64,000 nucleotides of DNA from Halichondria panicea. Lineage: Eukaryota; Porifera; Demospongiae; Suberitida; Halichondriidae. Below the pieces are notes generated by a model. It searched no databases, was not told where the DNA came from, and saw only the letters and a list, made by a program, of their open reading frames with translations. The stretch lies in the NCBI RefSeq assembly GCF_963675165.1, contig NC_087377.1, positions 13,512,198-13,576,197 of the forward strand. The letters are read 5' to 3'. This document shows, in pieces, positions 1,541 through 64,000 of this stretch. The translations under genes and the position numbers were made by a program. Each line of letters starts with the position of its first letter. The first letter of the stretch is position 1.

Positions 1541-2294
1541 TCCTTAACCTTGCAAGTTGCTGTGAGTCTGACCTCCTGCAGGCGTGCCTGTGTGATCTCA
1601 GGCTCAGAAGGTCCCCACCTGAGTTCCTCTGACCTGCTGTAGGTGTACCTGTGGCCTCCATGCAGAGTCTCTGCATGTATCTTGTCTAAGCCTTTGTTGC
1701 TGAGTGTCTGAGTGTAGCTATACAGCTCTTGTGTAGGTCCCTATATATAGTTGATAGTTCATACATGATAGTTCATTGGCAGCATACTACCAACTGCCTA
1801 GTCGGCAAAGATGCTGAAGTATACATCAGCATCTTTGCCGACTAGGATACTTACACAATCATGCAATTAACTATTATAGGTATAATCCCACGAAATTTAC
1901 CAGTCTATATACGGTATATATAGTATAGCTAATTACTCAACATGCACTGCGTACTAAAATCAAGTCTCATGCATGTAACAAACCAGGCAGATATAAAAGT
2001 ATTATAATTCACTCAAAAATGTGACTTTACAGTATAATTTATACACCTCGAATACTGCTGTTACTAGCTATATAGCATAATTACCTTTAATAGCAGTTTG
2101 ACACTAACTGTCCTACTCTATTGCTATAGGACAACTGCTGCAGCTGAAAGAATTACCCAGAACACGTACGCTGTTTTTTTACCTGCACGAATAAAAAAGT
2201 ATTGATGCCACGGTATGGTCACATTACATAGATAGATATACTCCAGATCTCAATAAACAGGCTTATATAGACGCGTAAATGGTATGTAATTATA
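1541..2294. other. Intergenic DNA with a perfect hairpin
   Basis: No exon is supported. The one structured element is a perfect 21-bp inverted repeat at 1797-1817 and 1826-1846 with an 8-base loop. The rest is AT-rich sequence downstream of the minus-strand gene at 2295-3235. Confidence 0.5.
1797..1846. repeat. Perfect short hairpin (21-bp arms)
   Basis: Left arm cctagtcggcaaagatgctga is followed by eight loop bases and the exact complementary arm. It may be a miniature foldback element or a transcribed hairpin; no second copy was noticed in the window. Confidence 0.8.
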
Positions 2295-3235
2295 CTAACT
2301 TTTACTAGCTGTCTCTGGTACAGCTATCTCTGGTATAGGTATAGCTGTCTCTGGTATAGCTGTCTCTGGTATAGTTGTCTCTGGTATTCGAATGGTGCGA
2401 GTTAAAATTCCCTTGGTTGTCTCGTTACATTTGGACGTCACTATTATCCTTGCATGGACATCCACCACGGCATTAAATGATACAGAGAATATTGCTACTA
2501 AACTATTGCTTTCTGCAGAAATAGTGATGTATTCAGTTTCAGTGTTATTCTCAAATAACTGGACGGTGTAGTAACTAGGATCATAATTCCCATTATTGTG
2601 TGCCCAGCTAACTTCCACACTAGCAGTGTTATAGTCCTCTGGTCTGAAAAGAGATCCTATCACAGGAGAAGTCACATCTAAAGGAGGACCTATATAGTAA
2701 AGAAATATTAAATGACATTACTTTAACACCCCCTCCAATATTAAGCATTAAACCATATCCCCGATCGCCCTCTAGGGCAATAGTCTTAGCGGTGGATTAT
2801 GATTGGTTTTAATATAGACTGCAATTTACCTGAAGGTCTGTGCTGCTGGGCTTCAGCATTTTCAGAACTCACGCTACAAGTAATAAAAAACTCCGGCAAT
2901 GACGAGTTTAGCACGAACAGATCTGCTTCCATCAAAGGTAAAATAGTTGAAGTAAGATTTGTTTTAATAGGACCTAAAACATACTCAGTCCCCGGAGTGT
3001 CAAATCCACGCATATATGACAAAGGAAAGTCCGATGGAACATGCGGTGGTGCATAAAGGTTGATAACATCTCCCACTCCACTGCAGACATAAGTAACAAT
3101 CTCATCAGGACAAACATAAGTTTGGTTGGTTGATTGCAGAGAAGACCTAAGCATCGTCTGACTGGACACATTCACAATCAAACATGTACACACTCCTAGA
3201 AGTAGCACTGACCAAGTCATCTGAACAAATAGCAA
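2295..3235 (-). CDS. Receptor-family gene A: secreted Ig-like + FN3 protein
   Basis: Two exons on the minus strand. Exon 1 (3235-2830) encodes a hydrophobic signal peptide (MTWSVLLLGVCTC region, starting at 3235 or 3220) and an Ig-like domain with the cysteines of TYVCPDEIVTYVC and FFITCSV. It ends at a GTAAAT donor. Exon 2 (2689-2295) starts GPPLDVTSPVI, a typical FN3 opening, carries one FN3-like domain and ends in a threonine/proline stalk of IPET-type repeats before a TAG at 2295. Phase-1 joining matches the other family members. No transmembrane segment or Sushi exon is visible, so the product looks secreted; a lost 3' half is the alternative. It is head to head with receptor gene B, with about 250 bp between start codons. 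Confidence 0.72.
2310..2395 (-). repeat. Tandem IPET-coding repeat
   Basis: Units of about 15-18 bp (tctctggtatagctg type) repeat five to six times at the 3' end of gene A. They encode a Thr/Pro/Glu-rich run of the kind that forms O-glycosylated stalks. Unit length is a multiple of three, so copy number can vary without frameshift. Confidence 0.7.
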
Positions 3236-3489: not shown

Positions 3490-6400
3490 ATGTCTCTCAA
3501 GTTAAACATCGACGTTGTAGTCGTGTTCTATTTTGCTTCTCTGAGTGCTATCACTGGTACATGGTAGATCTATAACAAGCTACTGAACAGTGTCTCTCAG
3601 ACAGTGGGACCAATACCATAGATCTATGCCAATACCGCGTCCATCAGTGCATGCAGTGGATACTTTGTTGCTATAGTTCTAGCATTAATTATACTGCTTT
3701 GAATTTTATATTAAATCTATCTGTTTTCTTTACAGCACAGTATTCAGTGAGTACGAGTTCGAGACTATATTAATTAACCAATACGTCTTTACTTTAATAC
3801 TACGTTCCTTCACAGCACAATATTCAGTGAGTGTGGAGAGACCATGTCCAATGGAAACAGTCACTTTCACTTGCACTGCTGCTGGAGATTCCTTGAGATG
3901 GATACCATCAGATACCTCAGCTCCCATCACCGTTCGCAACACCATTGATCTCAATGTATCACTAATGCAATCAGGTTACACTGTGAAACTAACTGCATTC
4001 AATGACACTAGCTTAACATCTACTCTATCAAGAACAGCAGAGAACGGGATCACTGTGATGTGTGTGGAGTTTGTCCCTGTAAGCAATATAAGATCTTCAA
4101 CAATTAATTTGGTTGGTGAGTTGCAGTCTTATCCATATACTAACTTTAATATAATTATATATAGATGCACCAGGACCACCTTCCATCATAAGACACTCCA
4201 CTCTGAGCAACTCAGCCAATAAAGTTAATGTGACTATTGGTTGGGACCTTCCTGCTGAGACTGGTGGTAGAGATGATCTCACCTACTCAGTGACCATCTC
4301 ACCTCCGGCCCAGCACTCTGCTACTGTCCTCACATCCACCTCTGTCACTGTGACTGCTCAATACAATGTGAACTACACTGTCGGTGTTGTAACTACCAAC
4401 TGTGCTGGGAACAGTACAATTGCTGGGTACAACTTTAGGATTGGTGAGTCGACAGTAATTTCGTTTTTGTATACATGTACACCACCGATAGTACCACATG
4501 CGTGCAGATTCGATTCCAATACATAATTCTATCCAATTCTCCTTGTATATCCAGTTTCCTGTGTCCTGCCTGCCCCTCCACTAAATGGAACTTTGCTCAA
4601 CACAAACTCTCACCTAACTGAGGGCTCAATCATTACCTTCCAGTGTGATCCTGGGTTTTCACTGGTGGGTGCAGCAACTACCACTTGTAACAACTCTGGT
4701 CTCTGGAATCCTGACCTGGCTCTATTGGAATGCTCATGTAAGTTTATTTGTGTCTTAATGTATGCTGTATATAACTATATTGACCTATATATAGACCCAG
4801 AAACTGGAAATGTTGCTGCTGTAGCTGGAGGTGTTGTTGGTAGTATAGTGATTGTGGCACTTATCATCCTGGTGGTGATAGTTCTCTTGGTGGTTCTCAG
4901 AGAAAAGAGAGAAGGTGAGTTGACACGTTCTCTCATCGTCTAACAAAATGTAATGATTATATTCACAGAGAGTGTAAGACTTAAATCAAACGACAGTATG
5001 GAAATGGATGATAAATTTGATGTAGGCTTTCTTAATTGTCATAATAGTGGAGTATTTTGTCTAGACTTTATACATGTGTTTTGGGGATTTCACAAAATTA
5101 TATGACATGCACACTACTTCTGCTTGCGCAGGATCGGAGTACATTGTACAGATCTGTTTCTGAAATGTAATTCTTTACTTTATCTGTTTCCCGACATCCC
5201 AGGCTACAGTGGAGCCGGTAATCTATGCTGCCCTTAGCTCCAGCCAGCCCCACAAGAAAAGCAACACGACTGCCACAGTGGACCATCATCAGGTGACCTA
5301 CGCCACTGTAGATGTCGCTGCCACCTGCAGGAAACAAGCAGCTAAAGCAGCCACCCTCCCCACCAGCCCAACAAGTGAGTCTGTTTGTGTTTGCTTCTGT
5401 CATTGTGGATGCATGGTTTTGATAGTTGTACAAGATAATGATAAAATCTTCTCATGCAGTGTATACAGGCTAATGCATATAGTCTGTTCCTGGTAGACAA
5501 TGTCAGAAGCCTCTATCAATTATAAGTTTCCCATTCTTGTGATTAACAAGAAGTGTACTGCATAGAGTTGTCTATTCCTGGTAGAGTTGTGTTGTGCCAG
5601 TATTTCTGGAAATTTGCCTCTAAATTGTGTGTTAGACCATAGATAAAGGAAAGAGAGATTGGAAACGAAAGTACACTTGAATGAACAACTGCGTTGCGAA
5701 TGTGGTTTAACCGAGGTTGCCTTATACGTTGCCAAAGAGACAAACCATAGACAAACGATAGTCTTACTCATGCAGTGAAGGAATTCTGCTTATAGCTTGC
5801 AGTTCCATACAATACTTGAGACCATATATGTGACACAGTACACTATACTTAGTTAGATAGCTCTAGCTATATAAGACTTTGTATCCCTTTAGCAACTTCA
5901 TGTATAACAATCGACATTTATTTTGTCATTTTCCAAGTGATACCTGCCAACAAGGGGCATTGTATCGAAGCTTTGAGAGGTTTGGAAGAGTCTATAGATT
6001 TGCTTTTAACCTTATTTTCCCCCATTTGGGCTGACAAAACGGTTAGTTTTCAAATTAAGCCACACCCCTGCACAAAAGTAGCCGTTTTGATTTCCGTTTC
6101 CAATCTCTCTCCTTTATGGTCAGACTTGTCAGTTCCTCATAATAGCTTTAGTAGGGGAAATGGTTTGTACCCCTAATCACATTACTGACAGTCTTGTTGG
6201 CTGTATCTATATTAAATTTGGATGATTATAGTTTGTCCATACTAGGGCTTCTGTCCACACTTAAAGCCTTGTTCAGCCTGAACAGAATAATTATGAGTAG
6301 CAAACACTTACAGTGTATGTTTACACAGAGCCACTCCCTCTCTAGAAAAAACAACGTGCAGCTCTAGACCAGCTCCTTTCTATGCCTGAGCCCTATAAGC

Positions 6401-9400
6401 CCTCTCCCAGTCACAGTGTCTCTATAAAGCAGCTCCTACCTCATCATTTTGTTTCTCATGCATGCAAGACATTTCTTTCATCCTTCATTCATCTTAAAAC
6501 ACCATTATTGTACTTTTACTGCATTGCCTGAGGTGCCAGTTTATGAACCATTACCTTGTAGCCCTGGGCCCCATGCTGAGGTGCCAATTATGACAGTTAA
6601 AATTAATGTTTAAATTTCCACTAGACAGACTACACATGACAAAAGTGTAGTATACCGCATAGCGCGAAATTTTCGAGGCACTTATATTTCGTGGATTGGC
6701 CTCTAAAAGCCATTTCGTTGCACAATGTTCGCGGAAGCCACGCCTTTAAATCTTGCACGTTATAGCAGGTAAAGAACGATTTTCGTGGACTTAATTTTCG
6801 TGTAGGATTGCTAACCCACGAAATCCACGAAAATTAAGCCCCTCGAAAATTTCGCGCTATACGGTAGGTGGGAAATAATATTAATTATAGATGCAGTACA
6901 AATGTTTGTCCAGTCCATGTGGATTGTTTCTGTTTCAGTGTCTTTAGAAACAACTTTTACAGTGTTTTTACTCCCATAAACATACAGCCTCAGCCTCGGC
7001 AGATGTGGACAAGCTCCTGGACATTGACCAGGCCTTGGTGCAGATCAGGTCAATGAAGCACAAGTGGAGGGAGCTGGCTGAAGCTGTGAGGCTGCCAGAG
7101 ACATTGATCAAACAGGTTTGTAATCCTATCTAGAGGCAATCATTGTATGCTGCGTGTATAAAGATATCAATTGCAAGTGTGAGCAGATGATATAAACATA
7201 ATAGATTCATCATCGAATCATTCCTTAATAGGTTGAAATTGTTGATGGTATGAGCTACATGTTCTTTTAGTAGACAGTAACTTTCTCATGCCCTGCTTTA
7301 CCATATTGTTTTGTCACACATTACTACTGGCAAAATAAAACTATACTTCATTTTCTCAACTATAGATTGAGGATTCATGCTGCAATGACAATGCTGGCTG
7401 CTTGACGGAGGTGATTAACCAATGGAGTTGCTCTGGACAACCAACGTGGAGTGAGCTGACTAACCATCTCAGTAAGATTGGGGAGGAGCAACTGGCAAAG
7501 GAACTCATGACTATCTACGACATTAGTGAGTACAGTCAGTCAGTGCATATATACACTAATTTTTCTGAATAATTATAATATTTGATACTCCAATGCTTTA
7601 TTAAGCCCTACTATTATCTAAGCACTATATAAGATTGATATTGTTACATAGTTGAATCGTTAATAAATTATGCAGTACATTTCATAGTTGATATTGTCAC
7701 ATAATTATTATACATATAGTTGTTGAACAGCCTAAATAGGATGCATTCTTAACTTGCCTATCAATTTATTTTGATGATGTCACTAACATCATGTATAATA
7801 ATTGTTATGATGCTTTCTTAAAAGGTGATGATCCAGTGTTGCAAACATACATTTTTTCCCAAGAGTGGGTTGTGTGTATAGTGATAGTGCATATGTTGTC
7901 CTAAGCCACCACATACATTCACTATGACTGACCTGTGGTATACCACCACAATTCATAGTGAATCAGAGTGGTGGCTTCAAAAAACATAATTGTACATGTA
8001 TGCTTCCTCGCTTCCTTGTACTTAGGGAACCACTATAGTATACACCTACGTACCTGACAGTGTCCACTGTGTGATTCATTTGCTGACATACCAACCTACT
8101 GTGTAGCTGCATGTCTCAGTTTATAGTATACTGTATATACGCAGACTATGTACGTATAGTTCACATGTTGAACAATCACCAACACGATGTACTTCACCTA
8201 TAGTCACCTTTAGCCCTTTGATATGTGGAGGTTCCAGAACAATATAATTATTGTATAGCGGGTAAATTTGGCGAAAAAGGCAATTGAACTATTATTGGTA
8301 ATTTTTAATTTGACAATCATTTTATGCTGCATGCATTGATCTCTTACGGAATACTGGGACTGAGTAGGAAGGCAAACATTGGCGAATTTTAATTTTGGCG
8401 ACCCAGCTCGCCTTGATTTGCCAAATTTCCAAATTTATACCCACTGTATACAGTATATCTAAGTTGTACAACATGCAAGTAGTTGTATTCTGCTGAATTT
8501 TAGAGAGCTGATCGATGTAAAGATCTGTAACTTTAGCTAGTTTTTCTATTTACGATACTAGAATGGTGAGAATCATTCCAATGACACGTACACTCTCTAC
8601 ACATACACACAGGTTGTCTCCCTGTGGAGTTGAGCTCTTGTTTGGCAGCACCAAAAACATTGCATAAGTACGACAAAACCTCTCCCCTCCCCTCTCAATC
8701 CCCCACAGTGACCGATGACAGCCCTGGACTACTAAATACACTTCCTCCGTCACGCCCTCCAAAACTGTAAGTTGAATACTAAAATTAATGTTCACCCATA
8801 ATTATGTATGTATGGTATAATAATTATATCTTACCATTACAATTGTTATGGCTGTTCCTTAGTACAACCAAAGTCTTAATACACCAACCTACAGACACTA
8901 GCAAAGAGGTGTTGGTGTCTGTAGGTTGGTGTAGTGTGTCCATGCATAAAGCAACTAGATTACTTATTTTTATATCAAATGCAAATGCACTGAGTGCCCC
9001 CGTAAGTATGAGTAACAAGCAATGCAAGGATACTAATATAATTATTAACCTTGCCAGTGCTTGTTATGAATCCCTTATTGCACGAGTATAGCCATACTAT
9101 TGATTGTTAATCGTTTGTGATGCAGTTTTAAGGACATTTTTAGCAGCAGTTTATTTCAGTAAAAAAAATTTGCCGCGGCCGTTATTCGAAAGTATGGTCG
9201 TCAAGGCAGTGATTACTGGTACGCGATTAATCACTGTACGAATCACAGTGAATAATAGGACAACATGCGATTTTCACTATAATTACGTCAAGACGCTGCC
9301 ATGTACTTGTGTATAGCTACATGATCCTTATTTCCTCTCCCAATACAGAACTGGTGAGATGGTTCCAGCCCGTCCCCCTAAACCAGCCCCTAACATCGAA

Positions 9401-9433
9401 CCCCCGGCACCTCCACACCCCTTTAAGCACTAG
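3490..9433 (+). CDS. Receptor gene B: Ig-FN3-Sushi-TM-tandem ITIM-death domain receptor
   Basis: Eleven exons splice in frame: 3490-3556, 3816-4115, 4165-4443, 4555-4737, 4795-4914, 4969-4995, 5210-5374, 6988-7115, 7366-7525, 8709-8766, 9349-9433. Total is 1572 nt, 523 residues. Order: signal peptide (1-22); Ig-like domain (23-122; cysteines in PCPMETVTFTC and VMC); FN3 (123-215); one Sushi/CCP with four cysteines (216-276); membrane segment with a GGVVG motif (about 282-308) followed by basic residues. The tail has ITIM-type motifs VIYAAL (Tyr331) and VTYATV (Tyr356), then a death domain over two exons (about 384-475; KHKWRELAEAVRLPETL and TWSELTNHLSKIGEEQLA). It ends in a proline-rich tail with PARPPKPAP. 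Ectodomain introns are all phase 1. An ATTAAA follows at 9448. Expected role: surface receptor joining phosphatase-recruiting and death-fold signalling (inferred from motifs). Confidence 0.85.
3736..3770 (+). pseudogene. Duplicated start of receptor exon 2
   Basis: In intron 1 of gene B, tttacag followed by cacagtattcagtgagta repeats the acceptor and first codons of the real exon 2 at 3816. The copy runs into a stop within about ten codons. It is a leftover of a partial exon duplication and could act as a decoy acceptor. Confidence 0.6.
5375..6987. other. Long intron 7 of gene B
   Basis: This intron separates the ITIM exon from the death-domain exons. It holds a MITE at 6653-6866 and one possible extra exon at about 6360-6415. 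That exon would have an AG acceptor, an open frame with PEPYKPSPSH, and a weak GTGTCT donor that keeps phase 1, adding a short proline-rich linker. The rest shows nothing I can name. Confidence 0.45.
6653..6866. mobile_element. MITE, TACCGTATAGCG family
   Basis: Terminal inverted repeats taccgcatagcgcgaaattt and its complement ending acggta bound about 214 bp with no coding capacity. Relatives lie at 13213-13410, 19602-19840 and 55250-55491. It sits inside intron 7 of gene B. Confidence 0.75.
7900..7982. repeat. Imperfect hairpin in gene B intron 9
   Basis: The segments taagccaccac...attcactatga and tcatagtgaat...ggtggctt are mutually complementary around a central spacer. It looks like a small decayed foldback element inside the intron after the second death-domain exon. 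Confidence 0.5.
8881..8932. repeat. Inverted repeat with 18-bp arms
   Basis: The arm acaccaacctacagacac at 8881-8898 is exactly complementary to 8915-8932 with a 16-base loop. It lies in intron 10 of gene B. Confidence 0.75.
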
Positions 9434-21582: not shown

Positions 21583-21713
21583 CCTCAGCCTCAGTCCCAG
21601 CCCTGCCTGATGTAGACAAGCTCCTGGACATTGACCAGCATATCAGGTCAATGAAGCACAAATGGAGGGAGCTGGCTGAGACTATGAGGGTGCCAGAAAC
21701 AATGATTGAACAG
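21583..21713 (+). CDS. Orphan death-domain exon (first half)
   Basis: This 131-nt exon is open, follows a cacacag acceptor and ends at a GTACGT donor. It encodes DVDKLLDIDQHIRSMKHKWR and AETMRVPETMIEQ, closely matching gene B exon 8 (6988-7115) with the same phases (1 in, 0 out). No intact second-half exon follows; the nearest copy, at about 26540, is degraded. It is a duplicated death-domain exon stranded among HEAT exons. Whether it is spliced into any transcript is unknown. Confidence 0.7.
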
Positions 21714-21960
21714 GTACGTACTCGAATCCATCAAGGGTCAAACATTGATAGTCATCAGGAGTACATGACATGCACATGTACTGTACATACATACATGTAC
21801 TTATAGTAGAGCAGCATAATTATCCACAAAATGCGGGAGTTTCCGTGCGTGGAATACAAAATTAATGTGGATAAGCTAGCCAAATCCATGATATTTTTGC
21901 AGCACACATTTTTTAGCAGATCTATCTTGCTGTGATGTTGGTGCATGTGTGTGTGTGCAG

Positions 21961-24669: not shown

Positions 24670-26082
24670 TTACAGTCCTACAGGTCCGTACGCTTGGTTA
24701 GTATTCAGTTCAATCTCCTCTTTGGGTGACACCTCCTCATAAACAGGACCAGCTGGTGCAGTGGGTCCTACGTTAGCTTGCTCTTTAGCTGACGGGGAGT
24801 ACACATTCTTCTTATGAATGAACAAATAAATTATCAAGAGTCCCACAAATAATCCTATTATCGTGAACACAATTGCCGTGACAACCACGCTGATGGAGAC
24901 AGCTGCATCAAATCGACTCCCTTCAGATATGCTGGCGCAATTACAATTACAATTACATGGAGCAGCTGTAGTTGGTTCAAGTGGTGGGGATAGTGGAGCC
25001 GTGCAGTTTATTGGAGGGGCTGTGTAATAGAATTGTATAAGAATATCCATTACTATATATACAACCAAGAGCTTAAACTTACGAGTTGTGGGAGTGGGTG
25101 TGGTTAGTGATGTACACTCAATAGCCTCAGGGTCTGGACTCCACATCAGTGTACCCTCACATGTCACCATTGTAACAGCAGACACATACCCAACATCACA
25201 CTGGATGGTTACCGTGGATCCTGGCAATCTGCTGGTGGTTGGTCCAAAGGCTACATTTATGGGGTTAGTCAGCACAGGACAGCCGCCTAAGAGGATCAAT
25301 TGATACTGTGTGCAAAAAATATATATACTCACCTACTCTGAAGTTGTAGTCAGCAGTTGTACTGTTCCCAGCACAGTTGGTAGCCACAACACTGACAGTG
25401 TAGTCCATATTGTATTGAGCAGTCACAGTGACAGAGGTGGATGTGAGGACAGTAGCAGAGAGCTGGGCCAGAGGTGAGATGATCACTGAGTAGGTGAGGT
25501 CATCTCTACCACCAGTCTCAGCTGGAGGGTTCCACTGTACAGATACACTAACTTCATCGGCTGAGCTGCTCAGAATGGAGTGTCTGATGGTGGACGGTGG
25601 TCCTGGTGGATCTATGTAACTTATATTGTGAGATAACGGACGAGGCACTTATTGCAACTCACCAACCAATTGGATCATTGAAGATCCAATAGTGGTTAGA
25701 GTAGGCACAACCCCCACACAGGACACAGTGATCCCATTCTCTGCTGTTCTTGACAGATTAGATGTTAATGTAGTGTCGTTGAATGCAATTAGTTTCACAG
25801 TGTAACCTGAATGCATTAGTGGTACATTGAGATCAGAGGTGGAGAGGATATCGATGGGAGTAACATCTGACAGTACCCATCTCAAGAAATCTCCAGCAGC
25901 AGTGCAAGTGAAAGTGACTGTTTCCATTGGACATGGTCTCTCCACACTCACTGAATATTGTGCTTTATGAAACATGCAGCAATAAGGAAATCTATAATTG
26001 AATAGTCAGTCTTACCAGTGCTGAAGCCACCCAGAAAGCAAATCAGAAGAACTCTAATGAGCTTTATCTCTATTAGTGTCAT
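24670..26082 (-). CDS. Receptor gene D: Ig-FN3-Sushi-TM with YxxV tail
   Basis: Five minus-strand exons splice in frame: 26082-26016, 25962-25663, 25611-25333, 25286-25083, 25019-24670. Total is 1200 nt, 399 residues. The first three exons are the same lengths (67, 300, 279) as those of gene B. Order: signal peptide (1-22); Ig-like domain with PCPMETVTFTC (23-122); FN3 (123-215); Sushi with four cysteines (216-283). A proline/threonine stalk contains CNCNCNC (305-311). The membrane segment is about 324-351, then HKK. The short tail has YEEV (Tyr377) and YGPV (Tyr394), 13 residues between motifs. These resemble SH2-binding sites but do not fit strict ITIM or ITAM rules. There is no death domain. 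Every splice site is canonical. Confidence 0.85.
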
Positions 26083-26539
26083 CTCAAAATTTTATTCTTG
26101 ACAGTTAGAAGGTTGCATTTCAATGTGATTGCTGACTAGACAATCTGTTGTTTACTTCCTTTTATATTCATAGCTTCTTTTTTAATTATAATTCCTGCTG
26201 TTTTGAACAAAACCAGACAACACTCTGCCAGCCTTATAGGCTTTGCTTTCTATTCTTGATTTTTTTCTCATGGTTTGCCGCCTATTAATAATATTTATAT
26301 GCTGTGTATAATAATTATGTATAATTGTGCTCAGAAATACTAGATAGATAATTATGTCAGTCTTGTGTCCATCAAAATTACTAATGGTTGTGACCCTTTA
26401 TCAGATCAGAGCTATATAGCCTTGTCTCATGCAGTTGTTTATTGTGTAGTGGATCTTTACCATCTCTTTTGTCTCAGCTGCTGAAGTGCTGTGATTGACT
26501 AGACTACTGGTACTATAGTCCCAGTGGATGGATGGAATG

Positions 26540-26645
26540 ATGAAGAGTTGCCCTGGACGACCAACATGGGAGGGAGCTGGGAGACCATCTCAGTAAGATC
26601 GGAGAGGAGCAACTGGCAACAGATTTCCTGACACTATCTGTGAGG
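26540..26645 (+). pseudogene. Decayed second death-domain exon
   Basis: The stretch tggacgaccaacatgggagg through gatcggagaggagcaactgg matches gene B exon 9 (7366-7525). The 5' part and reading frame are lost (tggatggaatgatg gives stops). It lies just upstream of receptor D's 5' end in the tandem unit. Confidence 0.65.
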
Positions 26646-31668: not shown

Positions 31669-32112
31669 CTCAAAATTAATTATTTCTTGACAGTTAGAAG
31701 GTTGCATTTCAATGTTGTGATTGCTGACTAGACAACCTGTTGTTTACTTCCTTTATATTCGTAGCTTCTTTTAACTACAATTCCTGCTGTTTCCGTAGAC
31801 AGTATATGAATAGTTTTTGTTGATACAAAACCAGACAGCACTCTACCGGCCTTATAGGCTTTGCTAAAAAAATTCCTATCCTGGATTTTTTTTCTCATGG
31901 TTTTGCCGCCTATTATTCTAATTAATTAAGCTATAATAATATTTATATGCTATGTATAATTGTGCTCAGAAATACTAGATAGACATATCAGTCATATGTC
32001 CATCAAAATAATAATGATTGCGACCCTTATCATAGATATCCTTGTCTCACTTGATGTTTATTGTATAGTGGATCTTTACCTTTTATTTTTTCTCAGCTGC
32101 TTGGCTGAAATG

Positions 32113-32230
32113 ATTGGCTAATGGATGATGAAGAGTTGCTCTGGAAGACCAATCTGGAGGGAGTTGGCAGACCACATTAAGATCGGAGAGGAGCAACTGG
32201 CAAAGGAACTCATGACTATCTGTGAGGCCA
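32113..32230 (+). pseudogene. Decayed second death-domain exon
   Basis: Sequence gaagagttgctctggaagac through gagcaactggcaaaggaact resembles gene B exon 9. Small deletions and a stop-containing 5' part make it non-coding. It occupies the same place behind receptor E as the remnant at 26540 does behind D. Confidence 0.65.
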
Positions 32231-41318: not shown

Positions 41319-41490
41319 ATTGAAGATTTATGTTGCAATGATAATGCTAATTGCTTGACTGAAGTGATTGATTAATGGATGATGAAGAGTTATTCTGGAC
41401 GACCAACATAGAGGGAGCTGGCTGATCATCTCAGTAAGATCAGAGAAGAGCAACTGGCAAAGGAACTTAAGACCAGCTACGAGATTGCAG
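41319..41490 (+). pseudogene. Second death-domain exon with stop
   Basis: The acceptor (tccactag) and donor (GCAG before gtgagc) are intact and the sequence follows gene B exon 9 closely, but GATTAATGG puts an in-frame TAA where gene B reads INQW. The exon is therefore a pseudo-exon. Confidence 0.75.
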
Positions 41491-42414: not shown

Positions 42415-44082
42415 GTGGACTTCTACATCTCCCAGAGGCAGGCAGCCAACCACGCAGTGAGAGAGGCAGCCTGCACCTGTACTGCAGAGCTGGGCACTAA
42501 GGTGAGTAACCTACGTACTGGCTGACAGGGTTTCATCTAGGATTAAAAGTTTGGGGGGGAAGGTTTACCACGCCGCAAAAAGTCTGGCCACTCCCACATG
42601 TGTTGACCACACACCCTATTACATGCTAGTGCATCACAGTAGAGCTAGTTACATATATATTGCACATCATAGACAGTACTATTGTGATGATGTCATTATT
42701 ATACACACATTTTGGGAGAGAAGGTTCACCCCAGCCCCCCCCCCCCCCCACTAGATGAAACTCTGGCTGAATAACGAGTTGTTTGATTGATTTGAGATTT
42801 GCATATCCCCTAAACTCGAACTACATGCACCTTGTCGTTATTTCTCACTTGTACCCAAGCATATTTAGGAATCCACCCTCCCCCACACACAGGTGAGCAA
42901 GGATTGTCTTAGACTGTATGCAGGTGTACTGTTAGAGTGTACTGTTAGAGTGTTTCCATGACGATAACTGGCCAGCCCGTGAGAGATGGTTAGTGTCAGT
43001 CAAGTAAATCATCTATTCTTTATTTTACTCACCCCTTTGCCGCCTGTCTGGCCTGTGGTAACTTCTTGGGACACTTCCCAGATGAGTGCAGGTAAGAATT
43101 ACACACCCTAACTATTAAACTACATGTGTACATACTTATGACAATATCCATCAGTTTCAATTGGATTAAGCACTTGCCTTCTGGTATTTTTTTAGTTTTG
43201 ATCAGTTGTACTTTTAGTATTTCCCCCTCTCCTCAGATCGTATAGCTGCATGGATGAACTGATCCCACTGTTCTCTGCCAATCTTGAAGACAGCATACCC
43301 TCAGTTAGACAAGGGACAGCTGCTGCTCTCACCAGTGTCACCAAAGCCTATGGTGAGATACTGTACAGACTAGAGGCCGTGCTGATAATTTGAGGTGTAT
43401 ACTGTCAAAATTGTTTGCATGCTCAGCTCATTATTACCTCTTCATTGTGTGTGGAGAATAGTCGTGCTCTTTATTTACTAGCTGACCGTGTGAAACAACA
43501 CTACAAGCATACATGATTGTATATATGAAAGCCCCATTAAGAAACCTTTGAAGATACTAGCTGCACTGTATTATGGGACCTAATAGATATCTAGCTGTAG
43601 TTAGTCTAAAACCATACATACTAGCAGTACTCTGAGTCTCAAGTTGGCACTAGAGCATATAACTGACTGTGCCGGTTGTATTTTGTAATCCTGTTACAGT
43701 TTAGCTAGTATTTTTTTTGTTTTGTCTTTGTGTTCTGTAACAGATCATCAAGTTGTGGGTGACCACTGTACTACATTCCTTGTCTTATCTCCATCTTGTA
43801 CTTCACTTGTACAGCACTCAAAGTTTCTCTATCTCTTTCTCTAACCTTGTAAGCTGCTGCTTTCGTAATCAATATTGTTGTACATTGAGCACTTAAAGCT
43901 CTTTCGACTATTTCACTACCTGAACAGCTGTTTGAAAGAGTGTGCAATACACTTTGATAAGAAGCAAATTATATTCGTTCTTCCCCCTCCTTCTTCAGCT
44001 CCACTGGTATTGATCCTGGACCGGGTGTATTTAAGGTGGTGCATCGTCCATGACAACCCAGACCAGCAGATGTACTCGTGTG
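42415..44082 (+). CDS. HEAT-repeat protein exons, longest ordered run
   Basis: Exons in an order that makes protein sense: 42415-42501 (VDFYISQRQAANHAVREAAC, CTAELGTK); about 42893-42922 (VSKDCLRLYAG); about 43039-43091 (ACLACGNFLGHFPDECR; its acceptor is unclear); 43237-43352 (SYSCMDELIPLFSANLEDS, VRQGTAAALTSVTKAYG); 43999 to about 44082 (PLVLILDRVYLRW, DQQMYSCASL). VREAA and VRQGTAAAL are typical HEAT-helix motifs. The last exon stops matching its full-length version (19394-19577) at about 44082, where tyrosinase-related sequence begins. It is therefore a 3'-truncated copy. I cannot name the protein. Confidence 0.6.
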
Positions 44083-45212
44083 CCAGTCTACTTCTAAAAC
44101 TATCTCGTGGACTGTCCTGACGATACTTGCCTTCAGCATTTGATTTATCATATTCTGGGGCAGCTATCGCTATTTCAATCTCACGTACATTCGGTAGATA
44201 TGTTTCAGCATTTCCTCTCTGAAGCCGATTACCATACCTTAAATCAGCGTTCGGGTTACAAGGAACCCAAAATGCCATACAATAACTCGAATTGTCATTC
44301 TCCCAATAAGCAATTGTGTTATCAACAGTCTTCTGTCTATATGTGATATTGCAAACCGTGTTCCAATTTAATCCACCTTCAATATCTTGTATTATTCCAT
44401 GTGTTGATGACAATTTTCCAAAATATCGCTTATCAAATACCGAAAGGTCATTGTCCTCCCACTTCCAGTACGGTAAGCCAAAACTAGTATTGTCTAGCAC
44501 TCTTTGAAGTGCTCTTTCCAAAATCAGCAGATATGTTCTGTGCCAGACTAGAAAATTTGGCCCAGAATGTGCAAAGTCAACATTTATACCGCCATTAAGT
44601 GTTTGACATGACTTCGAGGCATCTCGGGACACGTAGTTGTGTATGTAGACAAGGAAATCATATGTAGAAACATCTTACAGTGTAACTGTGCCAGATACAG
44701 TTAGTGGCTCTTCAATAACAACACTCCAATAACCCATTTCACTCTTTAGCATGAGCATACCATTCTTAACGTTTTGCTTTTCAGAATCCGATAGACTGCC
44801 AAAACTTCTTCTTTGAACGACTTGTTTTTTCATTCCACAATTTTCTCCTGACCAGCCAAACGCACATTCATTGCAATCGACTCCATAGAATTTCCCCGAG
44901 CAAATACAAACATTTTCAAACACCATCGTCGGCCAAAGATATCTGCTATCAATCCTATTTCCTTTTTCCGAAACATTGGATGTATTTTTTAGAACTGCGA
45001 CAATTTCTGGATCAGCATCAACAGATTGACGCTCTGCTTTTGATTTAACGTTCACACAATCTCCTCTACCATTACAGTTGTTCGGACAACATACTTTACT
45101 CTGGAGGTTCTGGAGTGTTGCAAACTGCCGGAAACTGTGCAAAAGTGCACCTTAGAAGGCACAACAAAATAGTTAGTGCCCAAAGCACTTGAAGGGGGCT
45201 TAGAGATGCCAT
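44083..45212 (-). pseudogene. Truncated tyrosinase pseudogene
   Basis: Read on the minus strand from ATG at 45212: signal peptide (MASLSPLQVLWALTILLCLL), a QFPAVCNTPE start, an EGF-like cysteine region (CICSGKFYGVDCNECAFGW) and the CuA half of a tyrosinase. The three expected CuA histidines are present in VYIHNYVSRD, DFAHSGPN and WHRTYL. Lesions: a frameshift near 45115 (QFPAVC frame to NLQSKVCCP frame), an in-frame TAA at about 44670 (GTVTL then DVSTYDFLVY), and loss of everything after RDSFR, so the CuB site is missing. It abuts a truncated HEAT exon. Only one short region lacks introns, so retrocopy versus segmental origin is open. Confidence 0.82.
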
Positions 45213-46950: not shown

Positions 46951-47644
46951 TCTAAGATTGCCAACTTTAAAACTGTCAAAATGAATTAAAGTTTCCCGGT
47001 ATATAGACACAACGTCATTGCTGTAGTATAGCCACGCCTGCATGCGACGCCAAATAAAAAACACCAAGTCGATTCAAATGGCTCATTCACTAAATATAAT
47101 ACCCCCCAATATTATAGGCTGTTTAAGTTACACAATTAACCTGGTGCTAGATCTAATAGTAACATTCCTCAGTGCATGATTCTAGCAATACTATTATAGG
47201 CAAGTGCATAATATACATGCATGCACTCACTTTAATGTGCTTCATAAAGCACATTAAAGTGAGTGTATATATATAAATACAATAAATACAATAATTATTA
47301 TAAGGTTTATACCACCCTTTATTGTTCCTTTAACACAAGTTATACATATACGGTAGTGTTTGATTAGCAATATCTATAGTGCATGTGGGTATAGTACATA
47401 CTATAGTGATTTTCGTTTTAGTTTCATTATAAACATCACATATACAACTAATTATATGCTCATTGTGGTCAGGCATCTGTGACGTAGGTTTGGAGGAATG
47501 CTTTTTGTGTACAGTATATTGGAGTTGCGTACTGTTCCTAATGAACTCTTGATGTTACCCAGAATTAGGGTGTGGTCGTCACAGCCCAGTAATTATACTG
47601 CTTCCATGGACTACAAAAAAGATCTATACTTCTGAAGAAAATTA
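46951..47644. other. Intergenic DNA upstream of the ankyrin gene
   Basis: It contains a perfect hairpin at 47224-47265. No clear TATA box or other promoter element was identified ahead of the ATG at 47645. Confidence 0.4.
47224..47265. repeat. Perfect hairpin (19-bp arms)
   Basis: cactcactttaatgtgctt and its exact complement are separated by four bases (cata). Confidence 0.85.
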
Positions 47645-49172
47645 ATGGATAGATCTACTTATGTTGAAAGAGACTGTCATACACAAAGTCAGACATTCGA
47701 ACCTTGTAGGCCAACCGAAGTTGATGTTGGGGGAGAAACAGGCCATTCTGCAAACAAATTCAGGGCTAGATCTATATCTAGCACAAGTAGTGATGATGTC
47801 GAGAGAGACTGCTCTAGATCTATTAAGAGAACCAGGCCCCAGAGTGATGTTGAGGGAGACTCTCCAATAAAAATACCTCGTGTTTTCAACAGTGTTCACG
47901 ATCAGTCGCTCTACTTAGCTACTTCAAAGGATAAGATTGAAGAAGCTATATTTCTCTTAGCCCAAGGAGCTAATCCAAACTATATCTTTCCAGAACCACC
48001 TAGGTATAGCACACTTCACAAAGCATGCTACAATAACAACTCACAATTAATAAAGGAACTACTAAAACATGATGTACTGAACACAATCAATCTAAAGACG
48101 ATCAATGGCTATACTCCCTTGCACATAGCGTGCGTGTTTGGACACATACAATGCATAAAGCTTCTTCTCGAAAGTTGTATCTGCAATACAGGTAATTTTG
48201 TATGAAAAAGGTTGTTTTATCCACAAAAGAGACCTCCATTATCCTGCATGCATGCATGCTTGGAAAATGCGTTGACCATGCAATGGCCTAACTCCATTGA
48301 CTCATGCACTCACTGCATTTCTGAATCTGATTCACTATTATACTTGGCTAATTGCTGTTGAAATTCTAGTAATGCCATGCATGTCTGTGGTAAAATTAAT
48401 GCTGCATGCGTGCATGTACATTGTATATATTTATCATTTGCATCGTATAAATTATCCACTTATTAACTGCCAGAAGTGAAAAATAACGAAGATAAAACAC
48501 CCTTGGATCTGGTAAAAGCAAAAGCAAAAGGTGAACTAAATGGAAAATTCAACAAAATCCAGAAGTACATGGAATGTTTTCTTGCTAACAGCCCACCTAG
48601 CAATACCTTTATGACAAGTAAGCTCGTCCATGCATGTTTTTATACTCATGCAGTCTGCTGCATACATGAATGATATAATTGGCTGCATGTCATGAGTTCA
48701 TGCATGCATGTGTATTATAATTATATACAGTCTGCTGCAAGCTATGCTCAAAATTAACAGTGTTTTCATTGTGTATACCAGTATAACTGCTTATACATGC
48801 AGGTTCTGACGTGTTTTCCCATCGTATTGATATTGACAAGCACCTGCGTTCACTTTTGGAGGTCTTATATCTGAAGTGTTTTGTAAATGGTTTGAATTTG
48901 GAGTTGAACTTCAAATTGAAGGCTCTGAGCTAGAGGTATATATAAGATAATTTATTATCAATCAATGTATAACAATGTATACGTTTCAGCGATTCAGTAT
49001 GGAAAATCAAGGAGTCCAACAACAGTGTTTCACAGCTATGCTGGTATATTTTTTCACTCATGATACAACTTCTACTTGGTCAAGCATCATTAGGGTAGTG
49101 CAGTCACGTACTGTTAACTGTCCACATTTAGTGAAGCAACTTATCAATTTGGCCGAAAAATTTGCTAAGTAA
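47645..49172 (+). CDS. Ankyrin-repeat plus death-domain protein (apparent 1-nt frameshift)
   Basis: Four exons: 47645-48191, 48474-48617, 48803-48935, 48990-49172. The N-terminus is low-complexity (Ser/Arg/Asp-rich). Ankyrin repeats follow: ALFLLAQGANPN-like AIFLLAQGANPN, YSTLHKACYNNN, NGYTPLHIACVFGH, then KTPLDLV. The last two exons give a death domain: FSHRIDIDKHL, then GGLISEVFCKWFEFGVELQI and WSSIIRVVQSRTVN, ending QLINLAEKFAK. Exon 3 is 133 nt. The reading frame shifts at a T-run (cactttt, about 48852-48860) so that the downstream death-domain frame needs one more base; 134 nt would also fit the phase of exon 4. Either a recent disabling deletion or a homopolymer error. Such proteins usually act as cytoplasmic death-fold adaptors (family knowledge). 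Confidence 0.7.
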
Positions 49173-52598: not shown

Positions 52599-53168
<570 letters not shown>

Positions 53169-53727: not shown

Positions 53728-54182
53728 CTGAGGGAGAGGGAGAGATAGTGAAATACAGTGGAACAAACAAAGGACGTTAACAAAGAACCTTGAGAAAAGG
53801 GACACTGTAATAATAACTTCCGTCCTCGAACTTTCCTCCAAAAACTATATAATTATAACCTCCGAAAAAAATAAACCTCTCTATCATATTAAGTGCCTTA
53901 AATCAATAACAATAGTACAGTATGTAAAATGGTAAGCATCAGTCAACTAATAAACATATCCTGCATGTAGTAGAGTGCATGGGTAGATTTGGTAAAGACT
54001 TCAGATTGAATAAGCAATAAACACTCTGATCCCACCACATTAAGTGATATAATTATAGTTTTGGAAAAGGTCACACAACCTACAACCATTACATAATTAT
54101 TTACTTACTGTATATAGGTGACTGCTTTTATATATAGCACTGCTACATGTATACAATTCATACTGATCGCATATATGCTCAC
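53728..54182. other. Inverted HEAT intron with transposon-free junction
   Basis: Read on the minus strand, ggacggaag is followed at once by ttattattacagtgtccctt near 53811-53825. These are the left and right flanks of the 33725-40478 transposon brought together. Confidence 0.75.
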
Positions 54183-54365
54183 CTGCAATCTCATAGTTGC
54201 ATGGTCATATGAGCTCTTTTACCACTTGCTCTTCTCTGATCTTACTGAGATGATCGGCCAGCTCACTCTATGTTGGTCGTCCAGAGCAACTGCATGTTCA
54301 TCCATTAGTTAATCACTTCCGTCAAGTAACCAGCATTGTCATTGCGACACGTACAAATCTTCAAT
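54183..54365 (-). pseudogene. Inverted second death-domain exon, broken
   Basis: Minus-strand sequence matches the exon at 41319-41490 and gene B exon 9. The acceptor AG is lost (cactattgaag in place of actagattgaag), AACTAATGG gives a stop, and small insertions disturb the frame. Confidence 0.75.
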
Positions 54366-56854: not shown

Positions 56855-58060
56855 ACTTCAACTGATGTATTTCCATGAGCTGAAGTCCAATATTAGCATG
56901 TATGCTGGGATTATAGAAGCACATTCGTAGCTCAATGAATGTCATCAGTAGTTGGAGTTGATAGAGTTTTCGTAAACCACGGAGGATTGTTGTTATTGTA
57001 ACATGTGTTGAGGCTAGATTGACCATCCCACAACGCATTATCGGGATGAAAACGAAACGGGTTTACATTATAGTTATTAGATGTGGCCACACTATCACAA
57101 AAGTAGTCATTTCCGAGTAAACCACGGAGGATTGTTGTTATTGTAACATGTGTTGAGGCTAGATTGACCATCCCACAACGCATTATCGGGATGAAAACGA
57201 AACGGGTTTACATTATAGTTATTAGATGTGGCCACACTATCACAAAAGTAGTCATTTCCGACAAATGGAGGAGAACCAAAAGTGTTCCCCTCATCACAAG
57301 GACAGCGCACGTGAGCGTCAGTATCACCACTGGTTCCATTAAAATAACCACTAGTAAACGTCCAGATATGTGTGCGTGGAGATTGTCCATGCGTGACACT
57401 GAGTCCATCGACATATGCAACATTGATAGTATTCCTACCTGCAGAATGGTATCCAGCGAATGCGTAGTTGTGTCCAAACCGATAACCTATTGCTCTCCCA
57501 CATACTTGCCTGTATTGGACACCACCCACTGGAAACATGACAGATGAGCAAAGACCAGCAGACAATTGTGTACGACCACATGATCTTATCAAATAGTCTG
57601 TCAGTTGAAGTCCTTGAGGGCATTGTTGGTTGGGATTGGTCATATTAATGTAGGCCACTCTCGCCCATCCTGGTCCACCGCAAGTGTCAGAAGCACTTGG
57701 TGGGTCTGTGGTCATTGCTGTTGGTTTGCTGGTAGCAGCAGTTGTTGCTTCGATGGTTGATGTGTCTGCTGTTGGCATGCTGGTAGTTGGCATCGATGCA
57801 CTTGCATTTCCTTCAGCATCTGTACTGTCTAGTTAAGAGAGACAGATTATTGTAGTGACATGCATGCATGGATAGCACACACACTCTTTGAACTTTTTAC
57901 TGTGAGCATAATTGTTACTTACTTACCCTGTAATCTGTCAGCAATAGTTTCCAGTGCTTTACGAATGTGTTCCAGCTCTGATAGATATTCGAGTGATTCT
58001 CTAATCTTTGTCAGCTCTGTCTCGGTTCCATGGCACTGGAGCAGGTTTGGCTCCTAACAC
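56855..58060 (-). pseudogene. Secreted conserved-domain gene, broken by tandem duplication
   Basis: A coiled-coil exon (about 58060-57928 on the minus strand; TELTKIRESLEYLSELEHIR) splices to an exon starting near 57830 with a threonine-rich linker. It then encodes a cysteine-containing domain with GPGWARVAYINMT, CPQGLQLTDYLIRSCGR, YRQVCGRAIGYRFG, NVAYVDGLSVTHG, RTHIWTF and FVGNDYFCDS. This domain type occurs in secreted proteins of sponges and cnidarians; its function is unknown to me. The end is broken: bases 56972-57116 and 57117-57261 are a perfect 145-bp tandem duplication (145 is not a multiple of three). A second 4-bp ATTC duplication lies where TDDIELRMC is expected (near 56938). Without them the frame would continue to about 56855. 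Confidence 0.78.
56972..57261. repeat. Perfect 145-bp tandem duplication
   Basis: The unit starts gtaaaccacggaggattgtt and ends gtcatttccga; the second copy follows immediately and I see no difference between them. It lies in coding sequence and shifts the frame. Confidence 0.95.
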
Positions 58061-61531: not shown

Positions 61532-64000
61532 ATGGGAGAAATGGAATTTCTTGTCCAAAGATGTCTCCTGCTTTGTCTCTACACAACATCAGCTCTAGGT
61601 GTTGCAAGTAAGTTCATGTGGTTGTGTATGAGGCTAGAGCTTGTCTGCTTGAGGCCTAGACTCTAGCTAGCTTTAATCAGGGAGTGTATGAAGATACACA
61701 TACACTCCTGCTTAATTAATAGCTTTTTGCTGATGATTGTACATGTAGAGTTGGGAGGCAAATAATAGTGATTGGAAGTGGTTAGTGACAGTTAAATTCG
61801 AGGGATCAGGCTCAAAAGGTAATGTCAGCATCAATCAGTAAGGAGTCGATGATTTGATGACCTTGTCCCACAGTAGCCTCGGTCCCAGGCCGATTTTTTT
61901 TAAGAACGAAGTTGAAAAATACGGCCTGGTATTGATTGTATCTGAGCGTGGCAGGAACCGGAAACAAAAGCAGAGATTCTTCACACTTTGTTTCCTGTCA
62001 TATTTCCCTGTATAAGTTTAGTACCGTAATTTAGCTTCGTGTTAGCCTCGTTCCCAGGCCGATCTATCGACTAGGAGTCGACCTAGCATTCAATTGGAGA
62101 CGGATCGGCCTGGGAACGAGGCTAGCTCCGTGTATGCTCTCAAGTAACAAAATCTAGCCATAGATTGTCTAGCTAGCTAGCTATGGCAAGTTTAAGTTGT
62201 TCAGATTAACGTATACATTGTCTTGCTTCCAAGAAGGCCCCACTCTCATTGCAGAACAGTCCCAACTCTTGTCAGAAGGAAGAAACGTCTTTGCCCGGTA
62301 TTTATCGACACTTTATTTACATAATTATGTGATGTAGTTACCGGATTAGTAATTCCTATTCCTCCTAGATGGACAAGAAGAGCCAGTAAGATTTCTCACT
62401 TCCCTTGAACACACTGCATGGTGGTTCAGTCAAGGCAAAAAGCAAGTCGTGTTGGACCGTGTCCTCCAGAGGGTTGCAGCAGGTCAGCAATGTCTGGAAT
62501 CGTACGTGACAGGAAGGACCAACAACTGGAAAGACCATGCATGAACATCGGCACAGTAGGCTGCGTGGGGTTGTGATTGGGCAATATTAGCTAGTAGTTT
62601 TATCTCCTCCGACTACTTTCTGACTTTGCTTGTCACATATTCAACAGTGTGGGATCTCGAGCCAATTGCAGCTTTAATTAATAGTAGAAATTTGCAATGA
62701 TGAGGAATACATTAATCACAAGGCCAGAGGTCAGTCGAGGTAGTTGAGCCACTATAGCTACAGGTCGGTTAAACTTAATAAAATGTGTCTTCTGAAATTG
62801 AGGCGATTTAAGTGCCATGTATATGATTATGAGTGAACAATGTTCAAATGTCGTATATTTAGAGGGTCACCTCTGATACAGGTTGGTTGGTAGAAAATTA
62901 AAGTTGAAATGCAGTCAAGCATGACCACTAATTGCATTAGTGAAGTAGACATACACTGTATGACATGACTGGCTGCACTTCAACTTCTAACTGGTGTCAA
63001 CCAACCTGAAGTCCTCTGTAGGTAGCTAAGACTATATAGTTATAGTACAAGCTATGCTTATACCAACTCAGGTCTTGCTAATTACTGTCTCAGATCGTAT
63101 TTTTCGGTATAAATTATGCTATAAATTACTTTACTGTTATTTCTCTACCAAAAAGAGGCATCTCTAATGTCCAACACGAGTGTAGCATGTCCTGGTGAGG
63201 CTGTTCTGTTCACATGCTCTTCGCCTGGTACTGCATTGAGATGGCAAGTAGATCTACTATCACCAGCAGGGACGTCACTGCAAAGTTTCTTCCTTCCCTC
63301 ACAAGTTGGTGTTCCAAGGACACTTGAATCTGGGGTGATCATATTTGAGGCTGTTCTTGTAAGCAATGATGGTGGAAATCTGACGTCCACTCTCATCAAC
63401 CTCAGTGAAGTGTCTGTACTGGGTGATAGCAATGTCACCTGTACTGTTATTAACAATGGTCCTACGTCACAGCAGCAAGCCATCATGGTTGCTGGTGAGT
63501 ATTGTAATTCATAGCTAAGCCTGTTGAGATGTTATTATTGCAGTTGTCCCAACACATCCACTCAATCCAAGCGTATCCTTCATTCAAAACCAACTCAGTT
63601 CCTCGATTATCACTCTGGACTGGGATCCTCCCTCCTCTACTGGTGGTGTGTCTGTCAGCTATGTCCTCATCATCTCCCCAACACCTCTCTCCGGGTCACC
63701 AGTCACCATGGACACCACCTCCATACAGATCACTGTCTCCTATAGCACTCCCTACGATGTGACTATCAGAGCTGTCAACTGTGTTGGAATGAGTCAAGAA
63801 AGTTCAATTGTGGATCTAAGTAAGCTAGCTATTTCATGGTGACTGCCGTCACATATATACGTACTCATTCCCTATCATACTTTTATCAATGCAGTTGTGT
63901 GCCCCACTCCATCTACTGCTGCTGGTGTTACCATCACCAACACACCTCCTGTCACTATTGATGGATCCATGCTCACCTTCACTTGCAGTGGAGACAATGA
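61532..64000 (+). CDS. Receptor-family gene F (5' part): Ig-FN3-Sushi
   Basis: Exons: 61532-61607 (signal peptide, FLVQRCLLLCLYTTSALG), 63156-63494, 63544-63819, and 63895 to the window end. All joins are phase 1. Exon 2 is an Ig-like domain (VACPGEAVLFTC, LRWQVDLL, NVTCTVINNG). Exon 3 is FN3 (TLDWDPPSSTGGVSVSYVLI, YDVTIRAVNCVG). Exon 4 begins a Sushi domain (VCPTPSTAAGVTI, LTFTCSGDN) and is cut off. The plan is that of genes B, D and E, but the sequence is more diverged. The cytoplasmic part lies beyond the window. A transposon ends directly upstream, so its promoter or 5' UTR may be element-derived. Confidence 0.83.
62043..62124. mobile_element. 82-bp palindromic TAGCCTCG element
   Basis: Perfect 22-bp inverted ends (tagcctcgttcccaggccga...) with a short core, inside intron 1 of gene F. 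Flanks gcttcgtgt (62034-62042) and gctccgtgt (62125-62133) fit a 9-bp target duplication with one change. It is the minimal member of the family. A degraded relative lies at 61874-61945. Confidence 0.85.
62879..63010. repeat. Long imperfect hairpin in gene F intron 1
   Basis: caggttggttg...aaagttgaaatgcagtca pairs with tgactggctgcacttcaact...caaccaacctg about 60 bases later. Arms are about 45 nt with mismatches. Either a decayed foldback element or a transcribed hairpin. Confidence 0.6.

Follow-up and report, generated by a model that had tools for sequence, protein, structure and literature searches.

A 64,000-nucleotide stretch of chromosome 1 of the demosponge Halichondria panicea (G000:C1:13512198-13576197, hereafter the window) contains, at positions 3490-9433 of its forward strand, a gene for a predicted type I, single-pass membrane receptor. 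The cytoplasmic tail of this receptor joins two tyrosine motifs of the immunoreceptor tyrosine-based inhibitory motif (ITIM) type to a death domain. The gene had been proposed as a single receptor in an earlier sequence-only reading; it is real but not solitary, as it belongs to a family with a short-tail arm and a divergent partner gene besides. Judged from gene sequences, the larger finding is a paired-type receptor cluster with a combined ITIM and death-domain arm.

The receptor gene comprises 11 exons with GT-AG boundaries throughout and compatible phases, and the splice model is open from end to end. The stop-free join of 11 exons in the sequence-only reading therefore holds, while its length of 523 residues does not, since the same boundaries yield 534. 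The exons, in window coordinates, are as follows.
3490..3556, +, exon 1: start codon and signal peptide MSLKLNIDVVVVFYFASLSAIT, a hydrophobic N-terminus near-identical in RefSeq protein P0001
3816..4115, +, exon 2: Ig-like by pattern, of the "IgA" class
4165..4443, +, exon 3: FN3
4555..4737, +, exon 4: Sushi/SCR
4795..4914, +, exon 5: transmembrane helix
4969..5021, +, exon 6: juxtamembrane segment
5203..5374, +, exon 7: tandem ITIM-like motifs VIYAAL (Y342) and VTYATV (Y367)
6988..7115, +, exon 8: first half of the death domain
7366..7525, +, exon 9: second half of the death domain
8613..8766, +, exon 10, long form: proline-rich; an alternative acceptor gives 8709-8766
9349..9433, +, exon 11: PARPPKPAP tail (SH3-ligand-like, PxxP) and stop codon

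Exon 10 most likely starts at 8613, because the long reading is shown by P0001 (LOC135348323, 569 aa), a RefSeq paralogue. With the long exon the predicted product has 566 residues and is 88.8% identical to P0001 over 570 aligned positions. The short exon is present in another RefSeq paralogue, P0013, so both forms may be real. The type I, single-pass topology is predicted by hydropathy only, from a signal-peptide-like N-terminus and one strong hydrophobic segment (19-residue maximum 3.78 at residue 293).

The ectodomain labels were examined with hidden Markov model (HMM) searches against Pfam. The Sushi domain was secure in the window protein (31.6 bits, cut-off 20.7), as the sequence-only reading had it. 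Its FN3 label fell below threshold in the window protein itself (13.3 bits against a cut-off of 25) and passed in the sibling P0020 (27.3 bits). The Ig-like exon shows the invariant Cys...Trp...Cys pattern and keeps its label on that pattern, but no Pfam Ig match was obtained in the window protein, and a profile built from eight Ig-like domains found nothing significant in the PDB.

The Death match was marginally under the Pfam cut-off of 22.6 bits in the window protein (21.5 bits) and above it in P0001 (22.8 bits), so that the Death HMM search, on which the sequence-only reading had made its death domain depend, did not fail. E values were at or below 0.01 in nine of ten annotated paralogues, the best being 8.2e-6, and a genome scan found a single-exon relative of the death domain, 49% identical, at C1:14428619, which scored 29.6 bits and thus exceeded the cut-off. 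Alignment by HHalign of the family death domain with eight other death domains of the H. panicea genome gave a probability of 83.7. When a death-domain profile was compared with the PDB, the ten best of 13 matches were to FADD, all of them weak (E 0.019-0.1); the single sequence gave just two weak, unrelated matches.

No Pfam match to a TNFR cysteine-rich ectodomain was found in the window protein or its paralogues, which have Sushi and FN3 domains there instead, and the window protein gave no Pfam match to ZU5 or TIR. Identity with a TNFR death receptor, with UNC5 or with an Ig-TIR receptor is ruled out on domain content. An NCBIfam search of the receptor returned nothing useful.

Both tyrosine motifs were found in the re-derived translation, with Y342 and Y367 the claimed 25 residues apart. 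They fit the conserved cytoplasmic [ILVS]xYxx[ILV] pattern of ITIM-type receptors, and the same tail holds a cytoplasmic death domain in the broad sense, its Pfam score being marginal in the window protein. At least two [VILS]xYxx[VIL] motifs were obtained in a tail of 85 residues in 0.08% of 100,000 shuffles. This rarity, together with the retention of both motifs in all 14 gene copies described below, rules out a chance motif.

We searched the whole genome with the ITIM exon and scored every one of the 22 candidates. There were 21 matches, all on chromosome 1 at 11.4-13.8 Mb. Exons were mapped over the window's first 14 kb and over about 9.9 kb around 19 of the 20 other ITIM matches and around an ectodomain locus (L049). 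At 14 of the 21 matches both death-domain exons then follow, in order and on the same strand. These 14 genes, namely the window gene and 13 paralogues (L030-L037, L042-L045 and L047), have a common layout on one strand, consisting of the FN3, transmembrane and ITIM exons, both death-domain exons and the first proline exon. Each of the 14 retains the two tyrosine motifs intact, spaced 23-26 residues apart, and in each the ITIM exon is followed by a conserved gtgag donor. Eleven share the position of the exon 8 acceptor; it is missing from that position in L044, L045 and L047, and the RefSeq proteins that match these three (P0005, P0006 and P0013) are joined differently. Individual genes are incomplete elsewhere: in L033 the FN3 match is interrupted by a stop and the last (second) proline exon was not found, the Ig exon of L032 was not detected on the sense strand, and L045 has Sushi fragments only.

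The seven remaining matches were left out as whole genes, being decayed, isolated or partial. Three (L038-L040) are decayed, with a stop in the ITIM exon and no death-domain exon found nearby. Two (L041 and L046) are lone ITIM exons in the stretch covered, although death-domain matches lie about 6 kb past that of L041; L028/L048 and L029, the latter covered for 1.5 kb each side, are partial matches.

Ten RefSeq proteins contain an ITIM-like part and a death domain in one chain, of which P0013, P0022 and P0032 are annotated without a complete ectodomain. The sole RefSeq isoform seen for the window locus, P0002, is a predicted model that covers exons 1-7 and part of exon 8, and thus spans 5374-6988. 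A pair of separate genes is ruled out, because all 14 copies conserve the exon order, the strand, the phase and the donor site, and the assignment of ITIM-like motifs and death domain to one gene is upheld. The original observation is right in substance, and the reading is supported with its length corrected and with the Ig label given by pattern only.

Other copies of death-domain exons were noted. Within the window, decayed or isolated ones lie at 21585-21719, 26546-26636, 32098-32220, 41319-41489 and 54112-54352 (-). Near them sits a recurring peptide, HEAT-like by eye (VDFYISQ..AVREAACICTAELGTK), at 21958, 27652, 40769, 42412 (+) and 53321 (-), which is part of isoform P0002. In the whole genome at least 148 Death-domain exon matches occur (among the best 150 of 503 candidates), and C12 has a dense series of them at 1.04-2.08 Mb.

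The family cluster extends over about 3.7 Mb. Its other arm is marked by a short-tail exon (YEEV...NxAY; ...GPVYEEVSPKEEIELNTNQAYGPVGL) present in at least 150 copies. In a search that scored the best 150 of 300 candidates, all 150 were on chromosome 1, where they span 11.25-14.93 Mb, with 140 of them at 11.25-13.95 Mb. The Ig-like exon gave 111 matching stretches, all except one on chromosome 1 (best 150 of 164 candidates). YEEV and NxAY are both present in 26 of 43 homologous proteins; in one of the 26, P0007, a transmembrane segment is not clearly present. The window itself contains two short-tail genes.
24673..26118, -, short-tail member: same ectodomain family with a YEEV...NxAY tail; RefSeq relatives P0024/P0041
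30250..31707, -, second short-tail member: RefSeq relative P0029

Both are on the strand opposite to the ITIM and death-domain gene. The same arrangement recurs in the cluster, since the strands were opposite in 39 of 42 comparisons of an ITIM exon with its two nearest listed short-tail exons, a count reached by 14 of 100,000 permutations of the strand labels. Related ectodomains are thus carried on alternative tails in one cluster, as in paired receptors. At the window's end (63161-64000, +) lies the start of a gene with an ectodomain of the IgB class (relatives P0017/P0018), which runs past the window.

Upstream of the receptor gene, and divergent from it, is a partner gene whose start codon is 269 bases from that of the receptor.
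2124..3220, -, partner gene, 277 aa: signal peptide, Ig-like part, FN3-like part and hydrophobic C-terminus
3220-2830, 2689-2306 and 2182-2124, -, partner exons: Ig-like, FN3-like and hydrophobic C-terminus, respectively

The partner has no cytoplasmic tail, and its C-terminus is as would be expected for a glycosylphosphatidylinositol-anchored protein. No Pfam match above cut-off was found in it, and the Ig and FN3 labels are by resemblance only; an annotated relative, P0047 (LOC135349505), has the same form. A genome search with the partner's first exon gave 21 matches, every one on chromosome 1; 19 of these are strong and lie in the cluster. A divergent copy stands upstream of each of the eight IgA-class ITIM and death-domain genes, and copies also adjoin three decayed ITIM copies. 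P0046, a partner variant that comes from a different source, shares 92.3% identity with the window copy and 89.6% with that of L036; apart from L036, all genomic matches to the window partner probe are at or below 66% identity. The difference of P0046 hints at variation between individuals or species.

Constraint on the exons was compared by the ratio of nonsynonymous to synonymous substitution (dN/dS), taken as the mean of pairwise Nei-Gojobori values over paralogues; as averages over paralogues between which gene conversion is possible, the values rank the exons only. In the eight IgA-class genes the ratio was 0.66 for the Ig-like exon, 0.76 for FN3, 0.45 for the ITIM exon, 0.15 and 0.21 for the death-domain exons and 0.58 for the first proline exon; the Sushi exon gave 0.42 (seven genes, 13 usable pairs). 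For all 14 genes the values were 0.36 (ITIM exon), 0.15 and 0.19 (death-domain exons) and 0.43 (first proline exon). The death-domain exons are therefore the most constrained, and the Ig-like and FN3 exons the least. dN was higher than dS in 2 of 28 Ig-like pairs and 7 of 28 FN3 pairs, and in no pair of any tail exon; between the window gene and its closest copy, L036, the FN3 exon has dN 0.107 and dS 0.078. Most of the ITIM exon varies while both tyrosine motifs persist. On this ranking the death domain appears to be held while the Ig-like and FN3 parts drift or diversify, a pattern that would suit an unchanging output coupled to a recognition part under diversification.

Ectodomains and tails have also been exchanged. 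In the tail tree L030, which has an IgA ectodomain, groups with two IgB-class tails with support of 98/99, and at least two changes of ectodomain class are forced on well supported branches.

Candidate partners for both proposed outputs exist in the same genome. SH2, SH2 and PTP matches lie in order on one strand at C3:8404573-8406287, an SHP2-like arrangement, and the best PDB match of the second SH2 region is PTPN11 (E 1.7e-55). A DED match followed by a Death match, the FADD layout, was found at C7:1623085-1623814 (about 1.623 Mb), and two DEDs followed by a caspase domain, on one strand, at C10:859830-862894 (about 0.860 Mb). Judged by spacing and order, each of these three sets probably represents one gene, and their products may interact with the receptor. 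A very large number of tyrosine-phosphatase exon matches was also seen on G000:C4, many of them at 0.04-2.6 Mb (best 150 of 361 candidates), possibly relevant to the receptors.

The explanation that we favour, to which we give about an even chance, is that the window gene belongs to an expanded sponge family of paired-type immunoreceptors, in which a single chain would combine a brake that recruits a phosphatase with an output through the death domain. Beyond the existence of these parts and their conservation together, we infer the following scheme. A cell-surface ligand, either a self determinant or a microbe, would trigger the receptor and would probably be bound jointly with the partner. 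A Src-type kinase would then phosphorylate Y342 and Y367, whose 25-residue spacing would allow both SH2 domains of the SHP2-like phosphatase to be engaged. The phosphatase would damp signalling by the short-tail receptors and keep the adjacent death domain silent. If the inhibitory ligand were missing or mismatched, the death domain would assemble with the FADD-like adaptor and caspase, and the contacting cell would be killed or an inflammatory programme would begin. The proline-rich tail may hold SH3 proteins such as Src kinases or Grb2.

Several observations weigh against this explanation. YxxL/V sites double as ordinary SH2 or endocytosis motifs, and neither the first proline exon (0.58 in the IgA-class genes) nor the ITIM exon as a whole (0.36-0.45) is strongly constrained. 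P0002 is without exon 9 and leaves exon 8 for sequence at 21.6-22.6 kb. The 26 annotated short-tail proteins all lack an immunoreceptor tyrosine-based activation motif (ITAM), and no charge occurs in the most hydrophobic segment of any of them, features of which an activating arm of paired receptors would have one; the short-tail proteins would therefore be a second arm rather than a classical activating arm, and an activating role is only presumed. Nor is pairing with the partner gene universal, because no strong partner match lies upstream of the six IgB-class genes (a weak one is present at L037) and 8 of the 19 partner copies are away from any ITIM exon.

In a bolder form of the favoured explanation, the whole 11.25-14.93 Mb region of chromosome 1 would be a sponge histocompatibility complex. 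Its ITIM and death-domain receptors would be self-tolerance switches, with brake and executioner in one protein, such that loss of the inhibitory self signal would directly free the death domain of the same molecule. We regard this as doubtful.

A microbe sensor is a tentative alternative, and rather unlikely. Its death domain would lead to signalling of the NF-kB or MyD88-IRAK type instead of killing, with the tyrosines as a feedback brake. Death domains are versatile, filter feeders face microbes, and a large birth-and-death family would fit such a function. Sushi and Ig-domain genes are also among the lipopolysaccharide responders of H. panicea, as far as the available part of PMC8242945 goes. 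However, the structures nearest to the death-domain profile were of FADD and not of MyD88 or IRAK, though the matches were weak.

In a further reading, which is distinctly improbable, an adhesion or phagocytic receptor would use the tyrosines for generic docking, of SH2/PTB or endocytic type, and its tail would be a non-inhibitory scaffold for SH2, SH3 and death-domain proteins. Such a tail would account for its terminal PxxP motifs and for the additional tyrosines of longer paralogues (YSEL, YNRI/YSRV, LTYDEV, YSVM/YSTM and YGQL). It would not be expected to keep the pair of hydrophobic-xYxx-L/V motifs at a spacing of 23-26 in 14 of 14 copies, even where the extra-tyrosine exons were not found, as in the window gene and L036.

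Finally, failure of the window locus to make the full chain, with transcripts ending after exon 7 or 8 or entering downstream decayed copies, would fit the course of P0002 and the decayed death-domain exon copies scattered across the window, but is very unlikely, since exons 9-11 can be read and spliced without interruption and match P0001 at 96-100% identity, and the P0002 junction falls in a stretch common to exon 8 and a downstream copy, where read mapping would be ambiguous and an artefact of it is therefore likely.

The remainder of the window has other features. On the reverse strand, an open reading frame (ORF) with a Tyrosinase domain lies at 43916-44674 (Pfam, 64.8 bits), and upstream of it an ORF with no Pfam match at 44675-45151; an ankyrin-repeat ORF (Pfam Ank_2, 54.6 bits) is at 47636-48205 on the forward strand. 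A TG dinucleotide array of 566 bases (98% match) occupies 52601-53166. A 145-base unit occurs twice, with a 100% match, at 56972-57261, and is overlapped by a 241-residue ORF at 57107-57832 on the reverse strand, which has no Pfam match. Scans of the window with Rfam (gathering threshold) and for tRNAs gave no match, and repeat and DNA-pattern scans showed nothing bearing on the receptor gene.

Among known systems, the closest organisation is that of the FF/FcoR receptors of Botryllus schlosseri, as described in the available part of a 2025 review (PMC12065747). These proteins of the fuhc histocompatibility locus are type I, 520-610 aa long, with Ig and Sushi domains and a long ITIM-capable tail; each FF member is encoded beside its cognate FcoR, and the haplotypes are polymorphic. 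The FcoR layout consists of a V-type Ig domain, Sushi, two C2 Ig domains, a transmembrane segment and a long tail with ITIM or hemi-ITAM (hemITAM) motifs. Fester and uncle fester have no known signalling domains (PMC12065747). The sponge receptor is of similar length, with Ig-like and Sushi domains and a long tail, and likewise lies in a large cluster with related receptors. Unlike FcoR, it has FN3 in place of the C2 Ig domains, and it has a death domain, none being described for FcoR in section 11 of PMC12065747. Allorecognition has been shown in Botryllus; for the sponge receptor it is a proposed role. Homology searches, which need shared five-residue words, found no named protein from outside H. 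panicea (5 of the 43 matches of one search were unnamed), and so did not demonstrate common descent with FcoR or the other compared families.

The Alr family of Hydractinia has 41 genes in the allorecognition complex (PMC11999971, PMC12065747). Like the sponge receptors, Alr proteins are non-bilaterian, clustered and of Ig type, and have motifs of the ITIM or ITAM type. The Sushi and death domains of the sponge receptor set it apart, neither being mentioned for Alr in the available parts of the same two sources.

The sponge family resembles the vertebrate KIR/LILR, SIRP and PD-1 receptors in having related ectodomains on alternative tails and an ITIM pair. The tyrosines of PD-1 are also about 25 residues apart. 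Vertebrate activating partners use charged transmembrane residues and ITAM adaptors, unlike the 26 sponge short-tail proteins, and we know of no vertebrate paired ITIM receptor (KIR/LILR, SIRP, PD-1) with a death domain. The ectodomains of TNFR-type death receptors are cysteine-rich and not of Ig, FN3 or Sushi type. UNC5 has an Ig-like ectodomain with a cytoplasmic death-fold module but, to our knowledge, no ITIM pair and no Sushi domain. TRAIL-R binds SHP-1 at its death domain and contains no ITIMs, according to the part of PMC10967194 available; the sponge receptor would similarly bring together a phosphatase and a death domain, its phosphatase recruitment being predicted. Sponge Ig-TIR receptors combine an Ig-like ectodomain with a cytoplasmic TIR module (PMC12909245 and PMC8242945, in the parts available). 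The sponge receptor differs from these and from UNC5 in giving no TIR or ZU5 match.

H. panicea individuals each express their own receptor array, according to the available part of PMC8242945, in whose main text the term ITIM is absent. In the literature covered (titles and abstract openings, with subscription journals mostly outside), no sponge receptor with ITIM motifs and a death domain was reported. According to the available part of the 2025 review, how invertebrate allorecognition works is a complete mystery, and the candidate proteins for it in sponges, cnidarians and ascidians show no conservation (PMC12065747). The present set of sponge receptors is discrete and confined to one chromosome, and has an organisation like those of Botryllus and mammals, and the genome that holds it also encodes phosphatase and death machinery to match. 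If the favoured explanation holds, ITIM-type control would reach a sponge lineage, as either a separate invention or an ancient trait, and the signalling layout of a death domain carried by an inhibitory receptor itself would have no counterpart in the literature covered. The cluster as a whole resembles the self/non-self systems of other animals.

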